64,000 bases of DNA from contig JAHRHY010000025.1 of the NCBI GenBank assembly GCA_019671135.1, positions 124,001-188,000 on the forward strand, in the 5' to 3' direction. Position 1 is the stretch's first letter. Every line of letters begins with the position of its first letter. A model generated the notes under the pieces. That model did not search any database. It was not told where the DNA came from and worked only from the letters and a program-made list of their open reading frames with translations. This document shows positions 11,898 to 64,000 of this stretch, piece after piece. The DNA comes from Linnemannia hyalina. Its lineage: Eukaryota > Mortierellomycota > Mortierellomycetes > Mortierellales > Mortierellaceae. The position numbers were made by a program, and so were the translations under genes.

Positions 11898-14800
11898 TTA
11901 CTCCTCCTCCTTATCCAGCTCTAGAGATCTATGAATGGCGCCACGTTGCTTGAGCAACGCGCGATTGGTTGTACTGAGTCCTACCGCGTCGGCTATGATA
12001 GTGCCCGTGGAGGCAAGTACAGCAGGCCCAGAGCTCCAAATCATCTGAACTGACACTCGGCCCGACTTTTCCAACACCTTCCAGACTCGAATGGATCCAT
12101 CGTCGCAGCCAGTCGCAAACTCCAACAAACCCGGCCTCCAAGCGACACTGTTGACTTGTCCAAAGAACTCCTCGATTACGGCCATACATCTCCAAGTCTG
12201 CGCTCCGTATCGTGCAACAAAATTCCACAGCCGAATCGACCGATCGCTGCGTATCACGATCCACTGACCGCACGACGAAAACGCAACGCCGTAAATGTTG
12301 TCGTGACGAGGAAGATAACCATGTGACTCATCAGCGCCGTGTACGTCAATGGGTCGCACTTCCGAGAGCAGACTGGTTGCATCCTGACGACCGCTCGGTG
12401 AATAGTCGATAGCCAAGTCCGGTCCTCCCAGATAACGACCTAGCATTGCCCTAAAGTCGCCTGTGTCCTCCCTCCAGACGTTAAATGTGTTGTCCTTGCT
12501 TTCTGATGTGCTCTGCAGACCGGTTAATGAAAACGCCAGGCTGGTGACTGATTTGGAGTGGCCAGTGAGAGTATGAACGGGCTCTCCGCCGCAATGAAAC
12601 CTCCAGAGTTGCACAATCTTGTCCTTGCTCCCGGTAGCGATCCATTGCCCACAAGGTGAGAACGCCAGGGCGTCAACTCCGTCTTGGCCACCTCGGAGGA
12701 CAAAGTCGGACTTTCCTGTGGTGACATCCCAAATGTGTACATCTCCTTCGCGTCCAGCCGTGGCGATCTGAAGACCATCTGTAGAATAGGCAATACAGTT
12801 CGCTTGGAGACAGCTGCCGGAGAAAACTTGCTCGAGCTCTCCCGAAACCGCGCTGTGTTGCTGCACAGTCCCGTTTTGACGGCAAGAGACGAGTGAGAGA
12901 CCAGAAGGAGAGAATACCACGCCAGTGACCGGGTCAGAGGGTCCATGCAGGCCTAGTCCCGATCCAGCAGTGCTGACCTCCCAGAACCGTATGGTCTTGT
13001 CACGACTGCTCGAGACAAGCTGCGATCCGTCAGGGTTAAACATCAAGCTCGTCACGCGTCCATGATGGCCGACAAAGACAGAAAGGAGACTCCTCGCCTG
13101 CGCGTCCCATAGTTTCACTGTGCCATCGATGCAGGAGGAGGCGAACAGCTGACCATTAGGCGAAAACCTTGTGCATGAAACGTCGCCTGTATGTGCTCGC
13201 CAAATCGGTCCCTGCCTGCCAGAAGCCATCTCCCATAGCTGCAGCATGCCCTTCCTGAATCCTGACACGAAGCGACGACCATTCGGTGAATAAGCGATGC
13301 AACGGATTCCCTCGGAACTACTTTCCATGTCCTTTGTCAGCAGTCCAGTCTGCGTGTTGAATATCCGAATCGTTCCATCATGACTGCCGCATGCAATCTG
13401 CTCTCCGTCTGGCGAGTAGGCGAGACCAGTGACGGCTCTGGTATGACCTTGCAGTACGAAAAGGACGTTGGCCGTTTGAGCATTGCACAGGCTCACCGAT
13501 CGGTCGGTACCAGCAAAAGCAAACTGGTCACCAGTAGGCGAGAATACCACGGATGTCGCTGAGCAGGGAAGCACCCGAATCAGGCCTCCTCGATCTGTTA
13601 TACTAAAGTCCCAAAACCTCAAAGTCCTGTCCTTGCTACCAGAAAGAATTTGGTGACCGTCAGGCGAATATGCGAGGCTGGCAACTCCATGTGAATGACC
13701 CCAAGAAACGCGAGTCTGTCTCCAGGTCGTAGTATTGTAGATGTTGATGTCGCCATTTTTTAATCCTGTCGCCAGCAACTTTCCATCGGGCGAAAGAACG
13801 CATGCCTCCACCCGCTCTGCCTCCTTTAGGTACGATAGCTCTCCAAATCGAGCTCCTTCCATCTGCGCACTTCCGAAATCCGCCTGACGGATCCAACTCC
13901 TGCTAAGGTTGACGCCTTTGAGATCCGCCCCCTGCAGCTGAGCAGAATCAAACTGTCCTCCAGACAAGTCGGCTCCTGGGATGCTGATACCCTGTAAATC
14001 CGATCCATTGAATTGTACGCCAGCCCTGACTAGAATGGTGATGGCGTTGGAGGAAGCTAGGGCTGCTTTCTGATCATTCTTGGACAGTTCAATGATGGCG
14101 AGGAGCTCCTGCTTGAAACACGGGTCCAGCGTGACGCGCTCAGCCAAGAACTGTGCGATTGAGGGCTCCATAACAAGGCTCCGCTTAGACAGCGGATGGT
14201 TTTGAATCGTAGGCGAGGTAGCTGTGTTGAGACGAGGTTGCGGAGGAAATTCTTCTTCATCGTTGACTGGTCCGTGGACAGTGCGAGAGTAAAAGTACTC
14301 CAAGACAGATTGGTGGACAAAGCGATACTGGTTTCCTGCTCGACTCAGTAGACTGGCGCCACGTAGAAGAGACGTATCGGGTTCGGGACTGAAAAATGCT
14401 ACTTTCCATGAGTTCTTGTCCCGTCGATGAGAGTAGTCGACAACCGGCTTCCCGTCCTGCTCCCGAAAGATCGCCGCTGCCAAGTCCTGCTGAAACTCAA
14501 TCCCGTTCCGCTCAAACCCGTCGTCTTTCAACTCGTTGAACGTCGTCTGGTCATCCACGCTCAGCTTTTGGCTCTGTAAGCGGCGTTTGTTGACGCCCAG
14601 CCAGTGCTCGACGAAAATGTCATAGAGTTCCACGCGAGTAATGTGAAGACTGGAGAGGTTGGTTGCGCCCTGAACAACTCTGGGCATGGACTCCAGCGCC
14701 AGGGTCAAGAGGAAGGGGTTCTTGACCAGATCCATCAGGTTGGGAATTGTCGCCAGCTTGTCCATGTAGTCCTCCTTGATCCACGTCCTTGGCTCTAAAG

Positions 14801-15740
14801 GAACATATCGCTCCACATAATCTTCGATCTGGCTCTTGGAGAATGGAGCGATGACGGCTTCTTGAAAGAGGTTATTGGCGACACGATGGTATTGGTCCAC
14901 TGCCGTTGGTACGAAGTGATCACGGTAGTCAGGTCCGAGGTACTGAGTGCGACATGTAATAAGCAGCTTGGCCTTCCAATGACCGGTTCGGTTGAGGAGG
15001 TTCGTGGTGTGGAGGTTGACAATGAGTTGGCACTCATCGTAGCCATCGCATATTAAAAAGAGCTGGTGGTTTTGCTCCAGCTCCCGGATCTGCATTTCGG
15101 AGAACTTGTAAGCCCAGAGCTGCTCGACAACCAACTCTTTTTCCGGGCGCTCGAGAGCAGGCAAGTTGATGAAAAGAGGGACCCGACTGCCAATTTCATA
15201 ATTGCTCCAGAGTTCGTATTCCAGGTGGCGGATGAATGTCGACTTGCCAGCCCCTGAGTCGCCCAATATCAACATCACTTGATCATCGCCAGCTAGGAAT
15301 TCCTGGACCTTGTCTGTCAAAGAGAATAGTTTGTTGTATGGTGCCTGCAGGTTGGGTTTGGCCAATGGTGGGATGTAGACGGCTTGCTTGTATTCCTCGA
15401 GCCTCTGATTCTTTAATGTGCTCAATGCGTACTCCACTGTAGGAATTTCTCGGACTGGAGTGGGAGAGAGATATGGCAAGGTGAATGGGGTTGATGAAAG
15501 GGGATTCCATGAAGTTACATCGGATAGCAAACTGGATCCGTCAATGGTGTGATGTTGTATTCTTTGCAAAGCGGTCGAAGTACTGGTAGTCGCAGAGAGT
15601 GAACGACGAGACTTTGCTGGGCGGTCGAGTTGAGGTAGGATGCGCTTGCCGCTGTTGGTCAGGTCCCGATGGTTTGTTGAAAGTGGGTTGGTCGCGCTAG
15701 ACTGAGATCGTGAGTGCTCATGAGGTGAACTAGACGACAT
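11898..15740 (-). CDS. NACHT - pentapeptide-repeat - WD40 STAND protein (fungal NLR-like)
   Basis: A single open frame of 1280 residues from ATG 15740. About 120 N-terminal residues are Ser/Thr-rich with no recognisable effector domain. Then YIPPLAKPNLQ and a NACHT NTPase: Walker A GDSGAGKST (about residue 160), Walker B LFLICDGYDE, and an ITCRTQ sensor. A helical region follows, then pentapeptide-like A(D/N)LxG repeats (GADLSGGQFDSAQLQGADL) around residues 580-635. The rest is about 13 WD40 repeats, many ending (I/L)R(F/L)W or VQLW. NACHT-WD40 proteins are signal-sensing, oligomerising ATPases; in other fungi relatives control heterokaryon incompatibility and self/non-self responses. Upstream, CCCAAG/GTAATA (donor 15847) and GCACGCAG (acceptor 15749) could bound a 99-nt 5' UTR intron. 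It lies 2.3 kb from a decayed copy, suggesting local duplication and loss. Confidence 0.9.
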   Translation of the reverse strand: MSSSSPHEHSRSQSSATNPLSTNHRDLTNSGKRILPQLDRPAKSRRSLSATTSTSTALQRIQHHTIDGSSLLSDVTSWNPLSSTPFTLPYLSPTPVREIPTVEYALSTLKNQRLEEYKQAVYIPPLAKPNLQAPYNKLFSLTDKVQEFLAGDDQVMLILGDSGAGKSTFIRHLEYELWSNYEIGSRVPLFINLPALERPEKELVVEQLWAYKFSEMQIRELEQNHQLFLICDGYDECQLIVNLHTTNLLNRTGHWKAKLLITCRTQYLGPDYRDHFVPTAVDQYHRVANNLFQEAVIAPFSKSQIEDYVERYVPLEPRTWIKEDYMDKLATIPNLMDLVKNPFLLTLALESMPRVVQGATNLSSLHITRVELYDIFVEHWLGVNKRRLQSQKLSVDDQTTFNELKDDGFERNGIEFQQDLAAAIFREQDGKPVVDYSHRRDKNSWKVAFFSPEPDTSLLRGASLLSRAGNQYRFVHQSVLEYFYSRTVHGPVNDEEEFPPQPRLNTATSPTIQNHPLSKRSLVMEPSIAQFLAERVTLDPCFKQELLAIIELSKNDQKAALASSNAITILVRAGVQFNGSDLQGISIPGADLSGGQFDSAQLQGADLKGVNLSRSWIRQADFGSAQMEGARFGELSYLKEAERVEACVLSPDGKLLATGLKNGDINIYNTTTWRQTRVSWGHSHGVASLAYSPDGHQILSGSKDRTLRFWDFSITDRGGLIRVLPCSATSVVFSPTGDQFAFAGTDRSVSLCNAQTANVLFVLQGHTRAVTGLAYSPDGEQIACGSHDGTIRIFNTQTGLLTKDMESSSEGIRCIAYSPNGRRFVSGFRKGMLQLWEMASGRQGPIWRAHTGDVSCTRFSPNGQLFASSCIDGTVKLWDAQARSLLSVFVGHHGRVTSLMFNPDGSQLVSSSRDKTIRFWEVSTAGSGLGLHGPSDPVTGVVFSPSGLSLVSCRQNGTVQQHSAVSGELEQVFSGSCLQANCIAYSTDGLQIATAGREGDVHIWDVTTGKSDFVLRGGQDGVDALAFSPCGQWIATGSKDKIVQLWRFHCGGEPVHTLTGHSKSVTSLAFSLTGLQSTSESKDNTFNVWREDTGDFRAMLGRYLGGPDLAIDYSPSGRQDATSLLSEVRPIDVHGADESHGYLPRHDNIYGVAFSSCGQWIVIRSDRSIRLWNFVARYGAQTWRCMAVIEEFFGQVNSVAWRPGLLEFATGCDDGSIRVWKVLEKSGRVSVQMIWSSGPAVLASTGTIIADAVGLSTTNRALLKQRGAIHRSLELDKEEE

Positions 15741-16552
15741 AATTGGTCCTGCGTGCACCAGACAAATGTTGTGTTAGAACTCTGTTTTAACTTGTATCTT
15801 CCCACTAGAAGAAGTTGAATGCGTTTGTGTTGTGTTGTATTTATTACCTTGGGACACGTTGTGAGAGTTTGTTGATCAGTCGGAAGTTGTGTTGGCGTTG
15901 GGAGAGGGTGACTGCCGGCTAGGTGAGAGTAGGCCTGAAGTAATTGTACAAGGAACATTGCATATTAGTCGTGGTTGGAATGGCTAAGGATGTATCAATT
16001 GGCATGGAGCTTAGAGCAAGGTTGTTCTTACCACGAGGCCAGAAAGGTGCTCTTTTGGGCCCTCTTTGGTGATGGAGCAGGGCAAGTTAGTCAGTCAAGT
16101 CGGGCAATTAACAGATGAATGTCGATGAGAGAAGGCAGGATGAGATGAAAGACGAGAAGGGATGATGAGGACGAGGAGAACGAGGATGAAGGAGCAAAGA
16201 GCAAGGAGAGGTGTTTGCCGTCCATTCAAGTCGTCCACCCTGCCACGTGGGAAACAAGGGGTCTGGAACTTCACAACGGGCGAAGTGGACTGTGTTCACG
16301 TGCTCACTCAACGGTTTGTTCCAGACATATCTCAACCCCATGTAACTGACAACTGACAGACGACTAAGCAGTACAATATCATTTCCTCCTCTGTCGAAGA
16401 TTAAATAACCAAGGTCCAGCTCCTCCAGCCCCCGTCCTCTCTCGTTTTCCGCTCTCTTTTGTTGATTCGCTTTGTTGATATCTTGCTACTTTCCTATATC
16501 ATTCTTGGATACCATCCTTTTTTCTATATCCTTCCTATCCTTCTACACCAGC
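15741..16552. promoter_or_regulatory. divergent intergenic between NACHT gene and small gene
   Basis: Contains the leader of the minus-strand NACHT gene (possible 99-nt intron, 15749-15847) and, toward the right, a pyrimidine-rich leader (CTCTCTCGTTTTCC and repeats of CTATATC) running into the ATG at 16553. No defined operator was recognised. Confidence 0.4.
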
Positions 16553-29917: not shown

Positions 29918-32900
29918 TTTTTTTTTTTTTTTTTTTTTTTTTGAGGGAAAAGAGAGGATTTATTGTGGCTTAAACAGCCTTGATAGAGTTATTTTGTGCT
30001 ATGGTTTTGGTGATTTCGCGAAGTATGGTGTGGATGATATCGCTACTAGATTGAGTGTGTTGATGAAGAAAAAGAACGGTGTTGGCTGATGAAATACCAA
30101 TGAGGCAACAAGCCAGCAATTGTGGGATAGTGATGTTAAATTGGGGTTTGATATCAAAGGTTGGAGGATGGAAAGACAAGACCTTATCAAGGTCATCATC
30201 TGACCAAAGTGGTTTGGATGTGTGTTCCTTGAGGATTGTTTGCCAAGCGATGTATTTAGGAGCGCACTGAAAGATGTGATGCGCCTTGTCCTCACGTCGC
30301 TCACGACATCCGGCCATGTTACAATGAGGATCCTGCTTCCAGATTTTTTGACGTAGAGTTCCGCAAGGAAGCCAATCCCTTTTAAATCTCCACCACGTGG
30401 TCCTGGCCCGGTGTGGTATTTTAGCGCTCCAGAATTGGCGCCACTGTTTCGAGGTTCCCGTCTCTGGTTGGGTTGAGGAGTTTGGGTTTAGTGGTGTGTC
30501 TTGCCTCAAAAAGGCTCGAAGGTGTTTGTTCGTGGCCGATTCCAGAGTGATGGGATTACTGTCGTTTGGGATCAAGACAGATGAGAGGATATGCTGTGCC
30601 AATGTATCATCCTGCGTGATCTTGGGTGGGTTCGAGAGTGCTTGCTGCATACTGTGGCGCATTCGACGACGTTCTTGGTAGGCCTGGATCCCTAGTTCCA
30701 CTTGAGCAAGGCGGAGCTTGGGGGAAAGGTGTGTTTTTCTGACCAGTTGGAGGAGCCCATTGTTGTCAGGAGAAAACTGAAAGAGCTCTTCCACTCGGAG
30801 TCTGAGGGTCTTGATGGTGGTATCTGTCGTTTCAAACCACCATTCGATTGGTGAGGAGGCAAGTGTTACAGAGTCCGGCAAGGGATCAGCAAGGGCCAGT
30901 GCTTTGAGGGAAGGGAGGAGGGACGCCGCAGATACCAATCGTTGCAGACCGGGAAACCCTGCCAATAAGGATCTGTACTGTCCGTCCAGGGGTGCTAGGA
31001 GGAAGGCAAGGCGGTGAGACGTTTTGGTCCTCCATCGGATGATATCAAGAATGATGTCCTTACCCCAAGAGACATTAGTGGAGAGAGCATTGCGGATATG
31101 CTTGAGTTGGAAAACATGGCATTGAGTAGCTGGGTCAATAACGCCTAGGCCACCCTTGTCCCTTGGAGTAGTGATCACCTCCCATGATGGCCTTGGTTTA
31201 AAGGAGCATACGAATTTGGTGACTGCAGCCTTCACCTTTCGCAAAAAGTCGAGCGGGGGGTTGACAATCCAGGATAGGTGCCAAAGTTTGGAGAGGATAA
31301 GAGAGTTGATGATGGTGGCTCGGCCCAGGACGGAGAGGGATCGGGAAGAGTGTATGGTTATGGCTGATTGTATCTTCTTCAGAGTCTTGTCCCAGAAGTC
31401 TTTTTCCTGATCGCGGTTGAAAAAGATAGGGAATCCAAGGTAGATCAAAGCATCGGCGGAGTTGTAGTCATGCCATCGCACGTCCAAATGTTCCAGGTGG
31501 GTCTGCAATTCTTTGGAGTAGGAGGGGGCCATAGGAAAGGCCACAGTTTTGGACAGGTTGACTTTGGCATTGGATGCGCGGCCATAGGTCCGTAGGGTAT
31601 CCTCCAATGCTGACCATTCGGTTGTGGAGGAGATGAGAGTCATGAGGTCGTCTGCATAGGCGCTGAGCTTGATGGGATCCGTGCGACCAGGGATTTCAAT
31701 ACCGTGAATAGCCGGGGATCGTTCGATAGAGGCAAGCAACGGTTCAAAGGCTATGTTGAAGAGGAGGGGAGATAGTGGGTCACCCTGGCGAAGTCCTCTT
31801 GATTGTGGGAAGGTGTCTGACACAAAGCCGTTGATATTGAGTGCAATCCTGGTAGAGAAGAAAAGTTGAATAATCGACTCCGTAAGGCATGATGGAAATC
31901 CAAGTCGTTTCAAGACCTGTTGAAGATAGGTAGGATGCACACGGTCGTATGCTTTTTCCTGATCCAGTAGTACGCCAATATGTCTTGTCCTTCTTGCCTT
32001 GCAGTAATCTCGGAGTGTTGAGAGCACTAAGCCATTGTCTGCTATATGTCGTCCTGCCGTGAATCCTGTTTGGTGCGATTCTGTCAGCTTGGTCATGTAC
32101 GGTTGAATCCGTAGGGTAAGGATTTTGGTGAAGAGTTTGGCATCCGAGTTAATGAGTGAAAGAGGTCTCCAGTTTGCCAGTTTTGTCGCATCGCCCTTCT
32201 TGAAGAGGAGGATCATCACTGTCTCTTGCCAGGATGTGGGGAAAGAGGCAAGTGTCAGCGCATCGTTGATAATTGCGGTGAATAGTTCCTTGATCCAGGG
32301 TATGAGGAGGATGTATCGATAGAGCTCAAAGGGTAAGCCGTCCTTGCCTGGGGCCTTATTAAGGGGCGTCCTGCTCACAACGTGGTCTAACTCATCAGAT
32401 GTGATAGTCCCTTCGAGTCTGGCGCGATCCTGGTCAGATAGGGTTGCATGTGGGGGGATGGCATCCAGTAGTCGGTTAGTTGCATTCTGGTCGGAGGGGT
32501 CGCAGGAGTATAGGCGCGAGTAAAAGTCTGTTGCTACTTCCAGACGTTCATTGGTTGAGGTTGTCAAGGCATCGGTGGCAGGATTGTGTAGGTGTGGGAC
32601 GAGTCGTTTTTTGTTGCGTTGAGAGATGGCTCGGAAGAAGTAGGCGGTGTTGCCTTCTCCTTTTTCACGCCATAAGGTTCCCGACCGGAGGGCATAGGCA
32701 TCCAGTTCTTCCGATGTATGTTGTTGAAGAGATGTTTCCAAAGCTTCCAGATCCTGAATGATTGCGTCCTTAGTTACACCGGTTGCAAGAGGGAGCTGGG
32801 CTAGTTTGTTTTGGCGTTGTATGTTGAGGTCTCTTAGGGCGGATTGTCGATCCTGTTTCCTTTTGATGGAGGCTGAGATGCAGAAACGTTTGATTTCCAT

Positions 32901-33672
32901 CTTGACCCTGTCCCAGTGTTGGATCTTGCTTTGGTGAGGACGGGGTAAGGAGAAGGTCGCCAGGTGGTCGGTGAGATTCTTGATAAAGTCGCAGTTGTTG
33001 AGGAGCTGGGTATTCATTCGCCATATCCCTCGACCTGTCATGGGGGCGGAGGCGGGGGAGAGTGTCAGTAGTAGCATGTCGTGATCCGAGAAAGGAGATG
33101 CGCAGAGTTGCTCAGATTTAGATACCTGTGAGAGGAATTGGATAGAGGAGAAAATGTAATCAATGGTATGACGGACTTTGTTTCCTGCAGGGGTGCAGGT
33201 GGGCTTGGGGTTGGTATGAAGTGGGGTGATGCAGTCTACAAGATGAGTATCAACCCAGTCCTGAAACAGGGGATGAGGACGAGGGTGAGTGTAATGTATG
33301 TAGTTAAGATCGCCTAAAAGAAAGGCCTTTGGGGGAGGGGAGAGAAAGAAAGGGAGGGAGAGACAGTTCAGCATGAATAGCCTTCGTGCTGTCCTGTTGG
33401 CTGGGGCATACATAACACAGAATGTGGCCATAAAAGAAGAAGATGAAGAGGTGACGGTGGTAATAATAATCCTTCCTTGTTCTGCGTAAGAGGTGTTAGA
33501 GAAGGAGAGGTCAGGATTGCGAAGAAGGAGTGCACAGTGGGGGGACCAAACAGAGCTGTGAGTGTTGAGATATTGGTTGTAATTGATCTGATCAGCAGTG
33601 GTTGGCGATGTTGGTAGGTTGATTTCCTGAAGGGCCATTATGTCAAAATCCGTTTGTCGAAGCCAGGTGAAG
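29918..33672 (-). mobile_element. non-LTR retrotransposon (LINE, L1/Tx1-like), 5'-truncated, with poly(A) tail
   Basis: On the minus strand one uninterrupted frame runs from host ATG 33731 to TAA 29970. It contains an APE-type endonuclease (DFDIMALQE, LLGDLNY, HTIDYIFSS, SDHDMLLL), a reverse transcriptase (RPLSLINSDAKL, GFTAGRHIADNG, LLDQEKAYDRV, GLRQGDPLSPLLFNI, catalytic SAYADD) and a C-terminal CCHC-like knuckle (CNMAGCRERR...HHIFQC). A 25-nt poly(A) tail (T on the plus strand) follows an AATAAA box. Exact 17-bp duplications flank it. No ORF1 is present, so the copy is 5'-truncated near the start of the endonuclease domain. The intact frame and perfect duplication point to a recent insertion. 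Clade assignment is by motif style only. Confidence 0.93.
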
Positions 33673-33689
33673 AAAGAACTGAACGACGG
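33673..33689. repeat. target-site duplication, right copy (LINE)
   Basis: Exact copy of the left 17-bp sequence, marking the 5' end of the inserted element at 33672. Confidence 0.85.
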
Positions 33690-34112
33690 ACAGGCAGGGC
33701 CTATTTGTGTAGAACTGTTCCAAGCAGACATAATATTAAGGGGACCTTCAAGCTTGTTCGTTTACCTGGAAGGCCATTGCAAAAAAAAACGCCTTGCAAC
33801 GACCGACCTTGCTTCTTGCTACTACATCACACCTTCAACAGGACAGGACAACAACCGAGAGGAAGCAGCCTTGAACAGAAATCAACCATTTTGCATTGCG
33901 GACACATTCACATTCAAGATTTATACACAACAGCATACTCCCAACCCGTACAATCACCTAGAAAACAGCTCGTCTTACTCTTACTCTTTGTTCGTTTTGG
34001 GTTGTGGATTCCCCTAACAACGACGCGTGAACCATCTGTACCTCTGACACACACCCTTCCGATCCACAAAGCCCACCTTGCTTTTTGCAACAACCACCTA
34101 ACAACAGCACAG
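33690..34112 (+). promoter_or_regulatory. CDC20 promoter and leader
   Basis: Host sequence right of the LINE. The segment just before ATG 34113 is rich in AACAAC and CAAC units, like other leaders in this window. The reading frame is open further upstream of 34113, but its translation is not protein-like and ATG 34113 is followed by family-like Ser/Pro-rich sequence. Confidence 0.45.
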
Positions 34113-44159: not shown

Positions 44160-45806
44160 ATGGACCGAGGTGGAGGAGGAGGAGTCACATACGCTAACAG
44201 GAATGGCCGTCAAGACTATGACGACCGACATGCTGACAATGGAGGACACCATGGTTACAACAGCCACTCGAGTGATTCGAACGGAGGAAACTACAGAAGG
44301 AACCCAGCACCAGGTTACAACACCGGTCCTAGCGGCGGGGCTGGAACTGGGGGTGGTTACAACAGCGGTCGAGGAGGCGCGTCTTGGGGTCAATTTAGCG
44401 GCAGCAATGGGAGACCACGCAACGACAACGCGCAATACCCAGACCGCCCATCTAACATGGCCCCGAGTAGCAGCGTTCACGGCGGAAGTCCTCCCAATTC
44501 TCACGGCTACGACGGTCCTGGTCGAGGCGAGCACCGCAACTATGACGACTCGTCTTACAGGGGTCAAGGCAACAATAGCGGTAGTAACGATGGACGTCCG
44601 GACCCGTCAGAGTCACTCAAGGCTTATCAACAATCCAAGAGCAGTGACCCTTATGCCGTCGGGCTGAGATCTTCGGCGGCCTTCTTTCACGAGACTTACG
44701 ATAAGCTGGAGCGTCCTGGCGGTTTTGCCGATGTAAGTGTTTTCCCCCCCCTTCTTTTCGAATGCCATTATCCAGCAAGTACATTTACTTTACTTTACAG
44801 AGTAGCAATGTCCTAACTCGATACGCGGTCTTGTTAAATTATCATACTTAATAATAGAGTACAGCAGGGACACAGTACACGGTAACAATCATCAAGACCT
44901 ACCGCGAGATGGCGACGCAGACAACAGAGGATCAAGTCTCTGGATCACAGGATTCGACCTGGAACGGCGTTCGCATCATCAGCTCAGGAAAGCAGCAGCC
45001 CACACCCCAGCATCCACCCCAGCACCAACACCAACAGCAACAACAGCAACAACAGCGTACAGCCCAGGCATACCCTAAAGCACCTATTGCGCCCGTAGTC
45101 GCCGCCCCTCCTCGCTCCACAGCAACTGTTACTTCATTACTCAACGCTGTCCTCACCCCAAGCCAGTCTCCTGTTGTTTCATCCGCAACCGCAGTAAAGC
45201 CCAACGCGTCAGGATCATACGGATCTTCAGTCCAGTATTCTTCAGATGAGCGACGTCCTCATGGAATGACAGGTAGCTCATCGGGCGGGTTAAAATCTAA
45301 CGACAGTGTACCAACAGCGTCGAGCGCATACCAGAAACCTCCCTACGCCACAGCATCTTCGGCGAACAAGCCCTTGGCTACCTCTGACAACTCTTCTTGG
45401 ATGGCAGCACCAGATTCTGATACCAAGAGGAGTGCGACAACTACCCAGCAGGATAATACCCGGAACGAGATGACCAAGAAGCTAGATCCAAGAGGAGCAC
45501 CACCACCAGCAGCAGCCAGCGCAAAGGGAGATCCTTGGTCACAGCCAGCGGCAGGGACCGCTGCAAAAGCGGACAATTGGGCTCAACCAACTTCAACGAG
45601 CAACTCGAGAGCAGAGTCTGGATTCAGCGGCTGGGGGAACACTTCTCAAGGAAAGGCTGTCAGCGATCTTGTCGATTGGAGTACGGGGCTTGTGTCAGAG
45701 TTTCCTACAGAGGCCAAGCCTACGTTTATGGCTGTGACGGAGCGCTGGGACAGGATGGACAAATATGACCCTTCGTATACCAACAACCGTCAAAAGACAC
45801 AGCAAG

Positions 45807-45855
<49 letters not shown>

Positions 45856-47431
45856 GCAACAACAACAGCAACAACAACAGCAACAACACCAACAACAACA
45901 CCACCAACAGCAGCAACAACAACAGCAACAACAACAGCAACAACCACCACCACCACTACCACCACAACAACAGCAACAGCAGCTGCAGAGCTCGCGCTCA
46001 GACTCAAAGGATGAAGAAGGCGAGGATCGTCATCGAGACCGTGGGCGCGCCCAAGAGAAGCAAGAGGTTGTCCAGGAACAAGGAGGATCAGATCCGTGGC
46101 TCAATGACGGAAATACTGGCCTGTCAGACTGGGGAAGTTCTGAGCCTGGGGAGTCACAAATGATCTTTATGGACCGTGACGACGCGAGTAGTCAAAGTCA
46201 GCCGCCACAGCCGAGCGAACAGGAACATCACCAGGAACCAGAGCGCCATCATAACGATGATGACGGACATTACCCCAGCACCGGAACATCTCAGGACCGT
46301 CGGGCTATGACATCCGAGGAGAGATTCAACAACAGCTATAATAGACCACCAAGCAGCGGCGGGGGTGGCATGGGAGGAAGTGCCAATGGTCGACACAGCA
46401 GCAACAGCAACAGCAGGGGTGGACCAGGACCGCGTTATGGTGATGGCAGCAGTGGCGCTGGCGGCGGCGGACACAGCTATGAGCGTGCGCAGAGACATGG
46501 ACCTATGACGGTCACGCCTTCTTCGCCAGTTGGTATTACAGGCCGTCGGTACTTTAACAACACCTTAGATCGCGACTCTGCCCTTGGCGCATGGTCTGCA
46601 GCCTCACAGAGTGCGTCATCAAAGCCAGGCCCTAGTCAAGGTGTTCCACCATCCGGGTCTTCTGGGTTGTTGCCAGGCTCGGGCGCGGCTGAAGGATCTG
46701 TACTGGTCAAGAGCTCTGGAAGTACAATGAGTAGTGGCGGTCGACCTGCACTTGCGACAGCGAGTGACTTTGGCAGTTTCTTCCAAGCGGCGGCGATGTT
46801 TACACCACCACCAGCGAGGGCGCGACAGGGAAGTCAAATGCGTCGGGGAAGTGAGAGCGAGAGCACGATGACGCATCATAGTAGTCCAAGCAGGAGTAGG
46901 GAGTCTTCGAGGTCGCGACCACCGTATTCCGGAACTGCTCTTGAGCACACTGAGGAGGAGCCTGAGCGCACTGAGGAGACTGTTGAGCAGAACTCATTCG
47001 CAGCTGGACACGAACACATTGACGAGGATGGGGATCTTATCAAGGACGTGGAAATTGCGCCTGTTGTTGTTCCTAGTGCTGGTACTGGCACTGTTGTTGA
47101 GGAGGACAAGGGAGATAAACAGCAAGAAACGGTGGAGGAGGATGATAGGAAGGAGGCGGTGCGTATGAACAGCAACTCTAGTCGGACTAGTTCGCAGGCG
47201 ATGGAGGATAACCTGCTGACCTTTCAGATGCAGAAACAGGCCGTTGTCGGTGGCAGTGGTGATAAGGAGAAAGAGGAGGAGCAGGAGGAGAAGAAGCAAG
47301 AGGAGGACAAGAAGCAGGAGGACAAGAAGCAGGAGGAAGAAGTTGTTGATAGTCCTGGAGCCATTGAAGTCGAGAAGGTTGTCTCAGGTTCGACCCAGGG
47401 CAGCCCCAAAGCTGACTCTGACGACGTGTAA
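44160..47431 (+). CDS. large disordered protein with GW/WG-type tryptophans and a polyQ tract
   Basis: Two exons, 44160-44732 and 44858-47431, phase 0 across a 125-nt intron (1048 aa). Exon 1 is Gly/Asn/Arg/Ser-rich with RG motifs. A short folded-looking stretch lies at the junction (FFHETYDKLERPGGFADSTA, then TQYTVTIIKTYREMAT). The rest is low-complexity: Ser/Gly/Pro, a Gln tract of more than 60 residues coded by CAA/CAG (45800-45988) broken by His, and an acidic Glu/Lys C terminus. Tryptophans are spaced singly in small-residue settings: SWGQFSG, TWNGVR, DPWSQP, DNWAQP, GFSGWGNTS, VDWSTG, DPWLNDG, SDWGSSEPG, LGAWSAA. That is the layout of Argonaute-binding GW/WG proteins. No family is recognised; the Argonaute link is inference only. 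Confidence 0.7.
45800..45988 (+). repeat. CAA/CAG trinucleotide tract (polyQ)
   Basis: Near-continuous (CAA)n with interspersed CAG and a few CAC/CCA codons, in frame within the gene above. Likely length-variable between strains. Confidence 0.9.
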
Positions 47432-61001: not shown

Positions 61002-61868
61002 ACGTATGCTGGTTGAGAATACCTGGGTCACGCAGGACGCGTCATCACACCACTCGCTTGGATTTATGGATGACCTTGCGGGCAGAGATGGCTAGTGTGT
61101 GTATACAACCGCAGTGGCTGACACCGTGAGAGTAATGGTTGCTGTGGGTCTTGAAGGTATGGTGTGCATGGTTAGAGTCATGCAGATGAAAAAAAACACA
61201 CATTTTTTTAATGTCGCCCGTCTCGACATTTTAGATATATCGACATAGAGAAAGAAAGAAAGATTATCGAACGGGTGCATATAACTGGAGCGAAAGGCGC
61301 CGTGAGCGCGAGCAGAAGCAGTACCACCCACCGTTCCCATCATTGAATCAAAAACACCGGGCAATCTACCCTTCATTCACCTGTAACTTTTGTAACATTC
61401 TCAATCATTCAGTCTTACTTTATTTAATTTTCAGTAGAGACGTCATATCTTTCTTTAGGACCTTTGTCTCTCCTGCCTTCGAATTATGTTTATATGTTAA
61501 TTTGAATGCACGGCCCAGCATTATACCTTCGCCCCCTTGTCCCTTCCATGCTGCTACTCTTTTGCTAGTCGCCAATGTCAATTCATCTGCCTGCACTTTA
61601 TATATGTCTTTATGGTTCATACTAGACTAATGACTACACTAATGACTAAGCTAGTAGACCCGCCGTTAGTCAATACCACTCTCCCTTCTCCTAGAAGAGA
61701 GAGAGAGAGAGAGGCATCGTCCAGGGCACACCACGAGGAGGTCGCGGGTCAAGGTAGTGCCCCAACAAAAACAGCTCCTCCAAGCGCCTCCAAACGAAGG
61801 TTGGCTTGAAGGAATTAGAAAAACAAACCCGGGCTTAGAATTCCGCCGAAGGCGTCCATCCTCGCCCT
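61002..61868. other. intergenic before the inverted repeat
   Basis: No gene is supported. A GA microsatellite lies at 61697-61713. The outer limit of the left repeat arm may lie in here, but it cannot be seen because the partner sequence is outside the window. Confidence 0.35.
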
Positions 61869-62731
61869 CAACGACGACGACAGTTTGACGAGGGGTACCG
61901 AACACACTGACCGAAGGGCATTCCAGCGGCCGCGTGGGCCCGGCTCCTCTTTTTTCTCCACGGCCCCAGAACAGAGCACACGTAGTCTCTGTCTGGGACC
62001 GCCGCACGTTGGTGTTAGTACTCCTGTTTGTCGTGTCTGTCCTCTTGTTGGTTGTCGGGTTGTTGTCGGGCTGTTGATTTTGTCGGGCTGTTGGTTTTGT
62101 CGAGTTGTTGGTTTTGTCGAGTTGTTGTTGCTTGTCGAGTTGTTGTTGCTTTTCGAGTTGTTGTCGATGGTGGCCGCCGGTGGTGGTTGTCGGTGGTGGT
62201 TGTCGATGGCGGGTGTTGATGGTGGTTGTCGATAGTGGTTGTCGATGGTGGTTGTCGATGGTGTCGATGATGGTTGTCGATGGTGGTTGTTGATAGTGTC
62301 GGTGGTGTCGGTGGTGTTGGTGGTGTCGGTGGTGTCGGTGGTGTCGGTGGTGTCGATGGCGGTGGGTCGATAAGAAGAAAAGAAAAGAAAAAAAGAAGGA
62401 AGAGAGAGAGCACTCAGTCCTTCTTCCTTTGTTCTCTGCCAAGCCATCGATGACCTCATAGCCGTCCGTCTCTCTCTCTCTCTCTCTCTCTCTCTGTCCA
62501 AACACCCAAAAGGAAAAGAAGGTGGTGGAAGGGAGAGGAAAAACTGGTTGGTCGAGAGGGAGCACGCACATGCTTTTTTCGGAAAAAAAGCCGAGACCAC
62601 CCTGGGAAAATGGAGTCATCATGCAAATGAATGTCAGTTGCATGATAACGTATCCATCGCGTCCTTTTCCTCCATCGCCACCATCGCGAGGTTTTCTTTG
62701 GTTGTTTTTTGTTTGTCAACATTGCCTGGGT
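61869..62731. repeat. left arm of a large inverted repeat (foldback structure)
   Basis: The reverse complement of 63179-64000 apart from point changes and copy-number changes in internal short repeats. Matching landmarks: CAACGACGACGACAGTTTG here against the complement at 64000; the segment with GCGGCCGC (61929) against 63939; the TC/GA tract at 62468-62497 against 63415-63446; and TTGTCAACATTGCCTGGGT at the inner end against ACCCAGGCAATGTTGACAA at 63179. Internally rich in GTTGTCGATGGTG and GTCGGTGGT units. The minus strand is open for 325 codons from 62643 (MQLTFICMMTPFSQGG), a Thr/Gln/His-rich frame caused by the repeats. Confidence 0.85.
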
Positions 62732-63178
62732 TCGGCTGAATCGTATCTTTCTTCAGAGCCTCTGCCTTTTCGCCGTCGAATTATGTTCGAGTAATGGAAA
62801 GAGAGTCTAAGAGAAGATGCGTGTATGTGTTGCCAGAAAGGAACGGGATAAGTGTAAGAGGATGAAGGATGGCGATGGAAGTATCGAAGTGAAATACGAG
62901 ACAAGATGGAAAAAAGAAAAGTACAAACTATCATTCCCTCATCTGTCAACACTGCCCGATTCCCTTTGATACCTTATCTCTTATTACCTTTTCCATGTCT
63001 CTATTCCCCACATGGTCAGCTACGACGTCGTGCTTGTTTGTTTGATGGTCGTAATGGAGAAGTGAGTTGGGTCGGTCGACAGAATAAGGGGATAGATACG
63101 TTACTCCCCCTTCCATTGTTTTCCTTCTCTCTCTCGGGGTCTTGTGGGTTGGCCTTCAATCGAGCAAGATTCATACGG
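62732..63178. other. 447-bp spacer of the inverted repeat
   Basis: Single-copy sequence between the arms. No ORF with protein character, no transposase and no RNA gene was recognised. Confidence 0.6.
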
Positions 63179-63412
63179 ACCCAGGCAATGTTGACAAACA
63201 AAAAACAGCCAAAGAAACCCTCATAACGGTGGCGATGGAGGAAAAGGACGCGATGGATACGTTATCATGCAACTGACATTCATTTGCATGATGACTCCAT
63301 TTTCCCAAGGTGGTCTCGGCTTTTTTTTCCGAAAAAAGCATGTGCGTGCTCCCTCTCGACCAACCAGTTTTTCCTCTCCCTTCCACCACCTTCTTTTCCT
63401 TTTGGGTGTTTG

Positions 63413-63447
<35 letters not shown>

Positions 63448-64000
63448 GGACGGCTATGAGGTCATCGATGGCTTGGCAGAGGACAGAGGAAGAAGGACTG
63501 AGTGGGTTCATAATGCTTCCCTCTCTCCCTCTTCCTTCTTTTTTTCTTTCTTTTCTTCTTATCGACCCACCGCCATCAACACCACCGACACCACCGACGC
63601 TATCGACAACCACTATCGACAACCATAATCGACACCATCGACAACCACCATCGACAACCACCATCGACAACCACCACCGACAACCACTATCGACAACCAC
63701 CACCGACAACCACTATCGACAACCAACAACTCGACAACCAACAACAACTCGACAAAACCAACAACTCGACAAAACCAACAGCCCGACAAAACCAACAACC
63801 CGATAACAACCCGACAACCAACAAGACGACAAACACGACAAACAGGAGTACTAACACCAACGTGCGGCGGTCCCAGACAGAGACTACGTGTGCTCTGTTC
63901 TGGGGCCGTGGAGAAAAAAGAGGAGCCGGGCCCACGCGGCCGCTGGAATGCCCTTCGGTCAGTGTGTTCGGTACCCCTCGCCAAACTGTCGTCGTCGTTG
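63179..64000. repeat. right arm of the large inverted repeat (runs off the window)
   Basis: Starts ACCCAGGCAATGTTGACAA and continues as the complement of the left arm to the last base, so the full arm length is unknown. The plus strand is open for 179 codons from 63267 with the same beginning as the left arm's minus-strand frame, so the two frames point away from each other. The internal CAACCACTATCGA units are fewer than in the left arm. Confidence 0.85.

Follow-up and report, generated by a model that had tools for sequence, protein, structure and literature searches.

Passages of three papers describe HDV-like ribozymes as having a P1 helix of 6-7 bp, a P2 helix of about 7 bp, cleavage at the first base of P1, and a catalytic core built from L3 and J4/2 (PMC4908430, PMC3774820, PMC8256844). 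In 26 fungi, according to one paper, 230 HDV-variant ribozymes were recognized and cleavage was demonstrated in examples of two species; 11 fungal examples fitting the published consensus had been known earlier (PMC5640933). Another paper mentions, citing a review, an HDV-like ribozyme of an unnamed cold-tolerant fungus (PMC3774820), so that an earlier notice of a relative of the sequences described here is possible. In the open-access literature we found no report of an HDV-like ribozyme in Mortierella (papers on Mortierella and ribozymes being judged by title), and none of HDV ribozymes paired in an inverted repeat or palindrome among the open-access matches listed, judged by title and start of abstract. 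Another kind of system, the Foldback and Mutator-type foldback transposons, carries long inverted arms with internal tandem repeats.

In the present study, we analysed a 64,000-nt stretch of the Linnemannia hyalina genome (the window; contig C18, positions 124001-188000, so that window coordinates equal C18 coordinates minus 124000) together with the 51.5-Mb assembly of 50 contigs to which it belongs. The first long protein of the window, which is POL5-like, has its best named relatives in Mortierella sp. NVP41 (90%) and Linnemannia zychae (87%), a further entry reaching 94%; this puts the host among the Mortierellaceae, close to Linnemannia. We propose, with reasonably high confidence, that the foldback at its right-hand end is one of at least five palindromic members of a noncoding repeat family, which carry outward-facing HDV-class ribozyme candidates just before a poly(A)-signal-like hexamer and were built by inverted duplication.

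The foldback, first suspected at 61869-64000 in a sequence-only reading, is present. Inside the window it forms an imperfect inverted repeat far beyond chance, whose outermost arms show 97% complementarity over 277 nt, with more arm pieces inward of this outermost pair and the innermost pair lying 425 nt apart. With the sequence past the window included, C18:185534-186742 aligns with C18:188335-187168 over 1232 columns at 90% (BLAST, E cut-off 1e-20). The left arm of this palindrome, hereafter A, occupies 61534-62742 (minus strand in the outward direction, BLAST self-match, about 1.2 kb), and the self-comparison beyond position 64000 that had been recommended follows the right arm (63168-64000, plus strand) on to about 64335 (C18:188335), some 335 bases outside the window. 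Arms of about 1.2 kb replace the 0.8 kb estimated before, the earlier start at 61869 being a mere mirror image of the window end; the spacer, put at 447 bp, measures 425 bp (62743-63167, no strand). Tandem repeats with units of 17-18, 13 and 9/27 bp fill 62058-62359 of the left arm (minus strand), and units of 13, 17 and 34 bp fill 63602-63819 of the right (plus strand). The comparison of GA/TC runs and of 9-, 13- and 17-bp repeats bears out the claim that short-repeat copy number is unequal between the arms. The most conserved part, a ribozyme-like core, falls outside 61869-64000, on both sides of that interval.

The suggested genome search for further arm copies, made with arm, middle and flanks and complemented by self-comparison, returned at least five palindromes as well as relatives with a single arm or a rearranged structure on C47, C48 and C2, all such genome-wide counts being lower bounds. 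Besides A (C18:185.5-188.3k), the palindromes are B (C18:206.6-209.3k), C (C18:263.0-266.2k), D (C48:540.8-544.8k) and E (C48:599.3-603.4k). Between left and right arm, trimmed and counted over aligned columns, identity is 96.4% in A, 97.7% in B, 99.8% in C, 99.9% in D and 97.0% in E. Because five palindromes at different places have non-identical arms, differing in 0.1 to 3.6% of aligned columns, a simple assembly mirror is unlikely, as the initial reading had also held. The outer flanks of the five are different or only partly common. The loci of D and E are copies of one another in opposite orientation, lying within an inverted duplication over 8 kb long (98.9% identity) that carries a T-box gene. 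This duplication, C48:534148-542582 / 601566-610000, has a T-box gene on each side and is joined to palindromes D and E; near both, there is also a stretch that looks like the 3' end of a gene for alanyl-tRNA synthetase, with a DHHA1 match that stays below the cut-off. In the arm tree, the left arm of A groups with the left arm of B (support 0.956), and both arms of D and the right arm of E are nearly identical. Such identities and grouping fit the copying of an existing palindrome with some arm homogenisation.

How the first palindrome may have arisen is indicated by the single-armed relatives. In two of them (C48h and C47a), a relative of A's left flank (window 61201-61490, no strand; C18:185.2-185.5k) passes directly into the spacer, and in A the inverted left arm intervenes at this very place. 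On this arrangement, the most economical view is that a linear unit came first and gained its left arm as an inverted copy. The spacer itself is matched in plus orientation in A, D and E and in minus orientation in B and C. A rearranged locus at C47:107660-108714 (L037/L014) has the spacer rather than the arm duplicated in inverted orientation (429 columns, 97%). Five single-armed ribozyme copies lie on C2 within 80 kb, at 1826.8-1829.0k, 1854.6-1856.5k, 1864.0-1866.3k, 1895.3-1896.7k and 1904.5-1906.4k, and four of them have long CAACA-type tandem arrays upstream.

Dispersed palindromes of this kind (five of them), with long arms and tandem repeats of varying copy number, resemble Foldback transposons, and a Foldback-type transposon had indeed been suggested. 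The rival to be weighed is a Foldback-type or Mutator-like element with long terminal inverted repeats, internal tandem repeats and a transposase supplied elsewhere. Unlike such elements, the arms of A-E end at different places and have no common ends, no direct repeat of at least 7 bp accompanies any arm-end pair (0 of 5; BLAST-defined ends, windows of about 50 bp), single-armed relatives and solitary cores exist, and a Pfam scan of eight nearby ORFs gave no transposase domain. Since the arm ends differ between copies and target-site duplications are lacking at all five pairs, a Foldback transposon is not supported, and we hold it to be very unlikely. The related proposal, that the arms are the terminal inverted repeats of a larger element, is not supported either, because the conserved piece lies within the arms and single-armed copies exist. 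We also considered protein-coding arms: long open frames run in either direction, yet single-base differences from copy to copy put them out of frame, and this idea was rejected. Two database searches gave no relatives of the arm frames, plasmid sequences were without a match to the palindrome, and the exact core pattern had 0 matches in viral contigs.

Several other features of the surroundings were recorded. A LINE-like element with an endonuclease/reverse-transcriptase frame, recognized by eye, occurs at window 29970-33731 (minus strand) and at C48:396001-399562; the two copies agree at 99.6% over 1893 bases of the one in the window, which therefore points to recent movement or copying. On C18 there are a tandem array of an approximately 84-bp unit over 2.6 kb (229834-232483) and an inverted gene pair, 95.8% identical and F-box/LRR-like by eye (271085-272640 / 282440-283998). 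The window further holds a 1286-aa frame (11898-15758, minus strand), by eye resembling a NACHT-type NTPase with pentapeptide and WD40 repeats, and 60 ACA-type triplets (85% matches) inside an 840-aa frame (45799-45978).

When distant copies of the family are aligned, one block is nearly unchanged and whole units match at only about 67-78%. A 31-nt core within this block is identical in all ten arms of the five palindromes. Allowing up to 3 mismatches, it occurs at 20 places in the genome and at 0 in the reversed control; 14 places are exact (the ten arms included), 1 has one mismatch and 5 have two, and by contig they fall on C18 (6), C48 (5), C2 (5), C47 (3) and C14 (1). A looser pattern yields 23 places, namely these 20 plus C14:762319, C1:3135025 and C11:1103334. 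The set of 22 cores used below comprises the 20 places, C14:762319 (C14_762) and C1:3135025 (C1), with C11:1103334 not included. The flanks of C14_450, C14_762 and C1 have no long match to other copies, and little is common beyond the core. A tRNA-like or SINE reading of the core, based on weak box similarity by eye only, was dropped.

On the outward strand, this core fits the fold of an HDV-class self-cleaving ribozyme, and cleavage is predicted. The candidate, about 90-120 nt long, sits in the outer part of each arm and faces outward. In the left arm of A it covers 61657-61763 (minus strand), with P1 at 61763-61757, the candidate catalytic C at 61669, P2' at 61663-61657 and predicted cleavage 5' of G61763; its right-arm twin starts at C18:188106 (64106), past the window end. 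P1 is GGGGCAC/GUGCCCU, crossed by a pseudoknotted P2 of at least 5 bp, GACCCGC/GCGGGUC (GCGGGTC in the DNA); P3, ACC/GGU, closes the loop L3, UCCUCGU, and is followed directly by the 3' strand of P1, then by the P4 stem and by GACUAAC before P2'. P1.1 can be fitted with CC of L3 opposite the GG after P1'. The helices follow each other as P1-P2-P3-P1'-P4-P2', with two of them crossing, and the order and sizes of the elements agree with those published for HDV-like ribozymes.

The copies conform to this model to different degrees. P1 has 7 bp in 17 of the 22 cores (the 10 arms, 5 on C2 and 2 on C14), with one U-G in the B arms; it is damaged in C47a, C47b and C48h (one A.C mismatch each) and in C47z (two mismatches), and C1 pairs 6 of 7. 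L3 is either UCCUCGU or UCCUCGC. J4/2 reads GACUAAC, GACUAGC or GACUGAC in the 16 rows of the alignment introduced below (A3), its candidate catalytic C being assigned by sequence only. In C14_762, P2 is GGCTCGC/GCGAGCC, giving 2 compensatory pairs, both from that single copy. The P3 and P1.1 pairs are invariant across copies and for that reason carry no covariation test.

We then expressed the model as a strict descriptor, which was written after the sequence had been seen, following the HDV consensus, and which demands a 7-bp P1 starting with G, a 3-bp P3, L3 of the form UCCNNGN, GG after P1', a P2 of at least 5 bp and a J4/2 of C-N-R-A type. In 290,188 bases it recognized 16 sites, every one of them at a core; 1.28 Mb of dinucleotide-shuffled sequence from the C18 stretch contained none. 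Once P1 was no longer required to start with G, and with two loci added, there were 17 sites in 296,188 bases, each at a core of the family or at a solitary relative, the reversed control giving 0. Relaxing L3 gave 18 sites against 3 in the reversed control, and any 7-nt L3 gave 160 against 119; the power of the descriptor therefore lies in the loop. Seventeen of the 22 cores pass it (the ten arms, five on C2, both on C14), and C47a, C47b, C47z, C48h and C1 fail.

Comparison with the Rfam models gave matches below the curated cut-offs, which are detection thresholds and not part of the definition of a ribozyme. At curated cut-off, nothing was found in the window. On 161-base stretches, C14_450 matched RF02682 (the F. 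prausnitzii HDV ribozyme) over the full model length with E 6.2e-4 and 28.8 bits, and RF00094 with E 0.25; C14_762 matched RF01787 (drz-agam-1) with E 0.021, RF00094 with E 0.29 and RF02682 with E 1.4; the right arm of A matched RF02682 with E 0.53 and RF00094 with E 1.2, and unrelated families have equally good E-values there. All HDV-type matches stayed below the gathering score of their model (28.8 of 44 bits, 21.5 of 37, 21.5 of 50). All seven HDV-type matches, from three models, start at the predicted G1 or two bases earlier. By E-value the best are those to RF01787 and RF02682, which start at the predicted G1; the likeness has its limits, since the scores stay below the cut-offs, the P1 sequences differ and RF02682 is off in the 3' half. 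J4/2 and P2' agree with the candidate model in 2 of the 5 HDV alignments inspected, RF00094 on the right arm of A and RF01787 on C14_762, and in these two the family's catalytic C is aligned with the candidate C; in the three others (RF02682 and RF00094 on C14_450, RF00094 on C14_762) it is not, and the 3' half is placed elsewhere. Whole-length scans of eight loci at loose E-values yielded an HDV-type match in a single one, L041 (C14_450), and none in L017 and L028 (arms of A and D). Across the genome, RF02682 found one place, C14:450585, with E 0.047 (61 of 3283 candidates scored), and RF00094 found nothing at E 10 (86 of 1253 candidates scored). Matches below cut-off also occur in control genomes (RF02682 in 8 of 14, RF00094 in 4 of 14). 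The many microRNA matches from the loose scans were disregarded as chance on repeat-rich stretches. The weight of the Rfam support is on the common 5' register and a single good match, less on the scores.

Pairing was assessed in alignment A3, which contains 16 of the 22 cores (13 distinct rows; the left arms of A, B, C and D, the right arm of E, and C1 left out). Here, pairing holds in 97.0% of cells. Both sides have changed in 4 of 23 pairs, two each in P2 and P4, and the covariation score was reached by 0 of 500 shuffles; 3 of the 4 double-changed pairs rest on C14_762 alone. Two further alignments, A1 and A2, hold 16 and 17 of 20 cores, near-duplicate arms being left out. In A2, which is without C14_762, 1 of 23 pairs is double-changed and the score was reached by 81 of 500 shuffles. 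P1, P3 and P1.1 hardly vary across copies.

The same near-invariance would be expected if the core were conserved as DNA, for example as a site serving a protein or recombination, or were a plain 3'-end processing element, with the HDV fit arising by chance. The symmetrical arrangement, the Rfam scores below cut-off and the fixed place before AATAAA, described below and expected of a plain 3'-end element too, can be read in this way. Against it stand the crossing helices P1-P2-P3-P1'-P4-P2' with matching L3 and J4/2, the strict descriptor with 0 sites in shuffles and in the reversed control, the agreement of three Rfam models in 5' register, and the compensatory changes in P2 of C14_762. We consider such a site quite unlikely, and the HDV-class candidate the better reading of the core.

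Relative to the fungal variants, which likewise put an HDV-class fold into varied contexts in fungal genomes, the present candidates differ in several respects, as far as the sections concerned describe them (PMC5640933). Those variants typically have C-G at the cleavage site, and here it is G-U, fitting the general R-Y rule; loop E replaces part of P4 in them, whereas P4 is drawn here as a plain stem. The extra nucleotide between P2 and P3 of the variants may have its equivalent here, one G standing there as drawn. Paired ribozymes in a palindrome, of which we see candidates here, find no mention in section 7 of that paper, which treats the fungal variants (PMC5640933).

Two further elements accompany the candidate on either side. 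About 200 nt upstream lies a conserved stem-loop (61944-62013 in the left arm, minus strand; 63856-63925 in the right, plus strand), in which 87.5% of cells pair and 2 of 18 pairs are double-changed; its covariation score was reached by 2 of 500 shuffles, and its count of double-change pairs by 256 of 500. Downstream, 42 nt after P2' in the left arm of A, stands the hexamer CATAAA (61609-61614, minus strand), a possible poly(A) signal, which is AATAAA in B-E. (A/C)ATAAA follows P2' within 57 nt in 21 of the 22 cores, as AATAAA in 19 and as CATAAA in 2 (both arms of A), while C47z has none within 110 nt. At random places of the same sequence, the hexamer falls within 57 nt in 3.6% of cases, and in 63-nt windows it is absent from the antisense side (0/22) and upstream of P1 (0/22). 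The 21 occurrences are not independent, since most of the copies are related; the hexamer is nevertheless also present in C14_450, C14_762 and C1 (AATAAA at 24, 19 and 4 nt after P2', respectively). Therefore, we place the ribozyme candidate just before a likely poly(A) signal. No shared gene was noticed downstream of the candidates in the frame lists, the eight ORFs scanned with Pfam, or 2-4 kb stretches on C2 and C14.

This position bears on the possibility that the ribozyme marks the 5' end of a lost non-LTR retroelement or its non-autonomous derivative. The presence of HDV-like ribozymes at the 5' ends of retroelements is well established, and the ribozymes of R2 and L1Tc/ingi resemble the candidate in a P1 of 6-7 bp, a P2 of at least 5 bp, a catalytic C, and cleavage, here predicted, at the first base of P1 (PMC3774820, PMC4035085). 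Moreover, the LINE-like element lies about 1.4 kb from the C48h copy, although on the opposite strand. Unlike in R2 and L1Tc/ingi, among the listed frames of at least 180 aa we noticed none for a reverse transcriptase immediately downstream of A-E; in the palindromes and several relatives, conservation extends to the upstream side of the predicted cleavage site, the stem-loop included; and the poly(A)-signal-like hexamer comes directly after the candidate, so that little transcript would remain downstream. We take a retroelement remnant to be an unlikely reading.

The palindromic copies raise another question, namely whether the selected product is double-stranded RNA for silencing, as the idea of a hairpin RNA locus implies, the ribozyme-like core then being incidental or a trimmer of the precursor. 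Arms of more than 1 kb with few mismatches would indeed yield long double-stranded RNA. Yet, between the right arms of A and D, the outer 420 bp match at 92-98% and the inner blocks at 78 to 97%, and the core is also present without a palindrome. We regard a silencing locus as improbable, and return to the family of ribozyme candidates as the preferred reading.

Taken in this way, the history might be as follows. An ancestral linear unit would have consisted of flank, spacer, GA repeat, CAACAA-type tandem repeats, stem-loop, ribozyme and AATAAA. Most likely, the spacer gained an inverted copy of the arm on its opposite side, and the resulting palindrome would then have been copied to other places. 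RNA transcribed outward along an arm would be cleaved by its own ribozyme immediately 5' of G1 in P1, and cleavage would release the ribozyme together with the poly(A) end, leaving the repeat- and hairpin-bearing upstream RNA without a tail. On read-through of both arms, the ribozyme may instead pair with its complement in the other arm, giving long double-stranded RNA in which the ribozyme would be masked.

The symmetry of the palindromes also invites comparison with delta-like and viroid-like circular RNAs and retrozymes, as covered in part of PMC8256844: like these, a palindrome transcript of either strand would be self-complementary and carry one ribozyme. Here, by contrast, we deal with a genomic repeat, and database searches with its open frames gave no relative. 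That the palindromes give rise to rod-like RNAs that cleave themselves, lack a tail and carry one HDV-class ribozyme per polarity, maybe circularised or amplified, as a fungal, DNA-encoded counterpart of retrozymes or delta-like agents, strikes us as a highly speculative proposition with little probability.

For the biology of the family, the finding may be viewed from two sides. The occurrence of 22 nearly invariant cores in palindromic, single-armed and solitary settings, nearly all directly before a poly(A)-signal-like hexamer, suggests one job, the removal of the RNA tail. Furthermore, the head-to-head pair sets two kinds of transcript against each other, one started in the spacer, which may cut itself, and one reading through both arms, which would form double-stranded RNA and may stay uncut.
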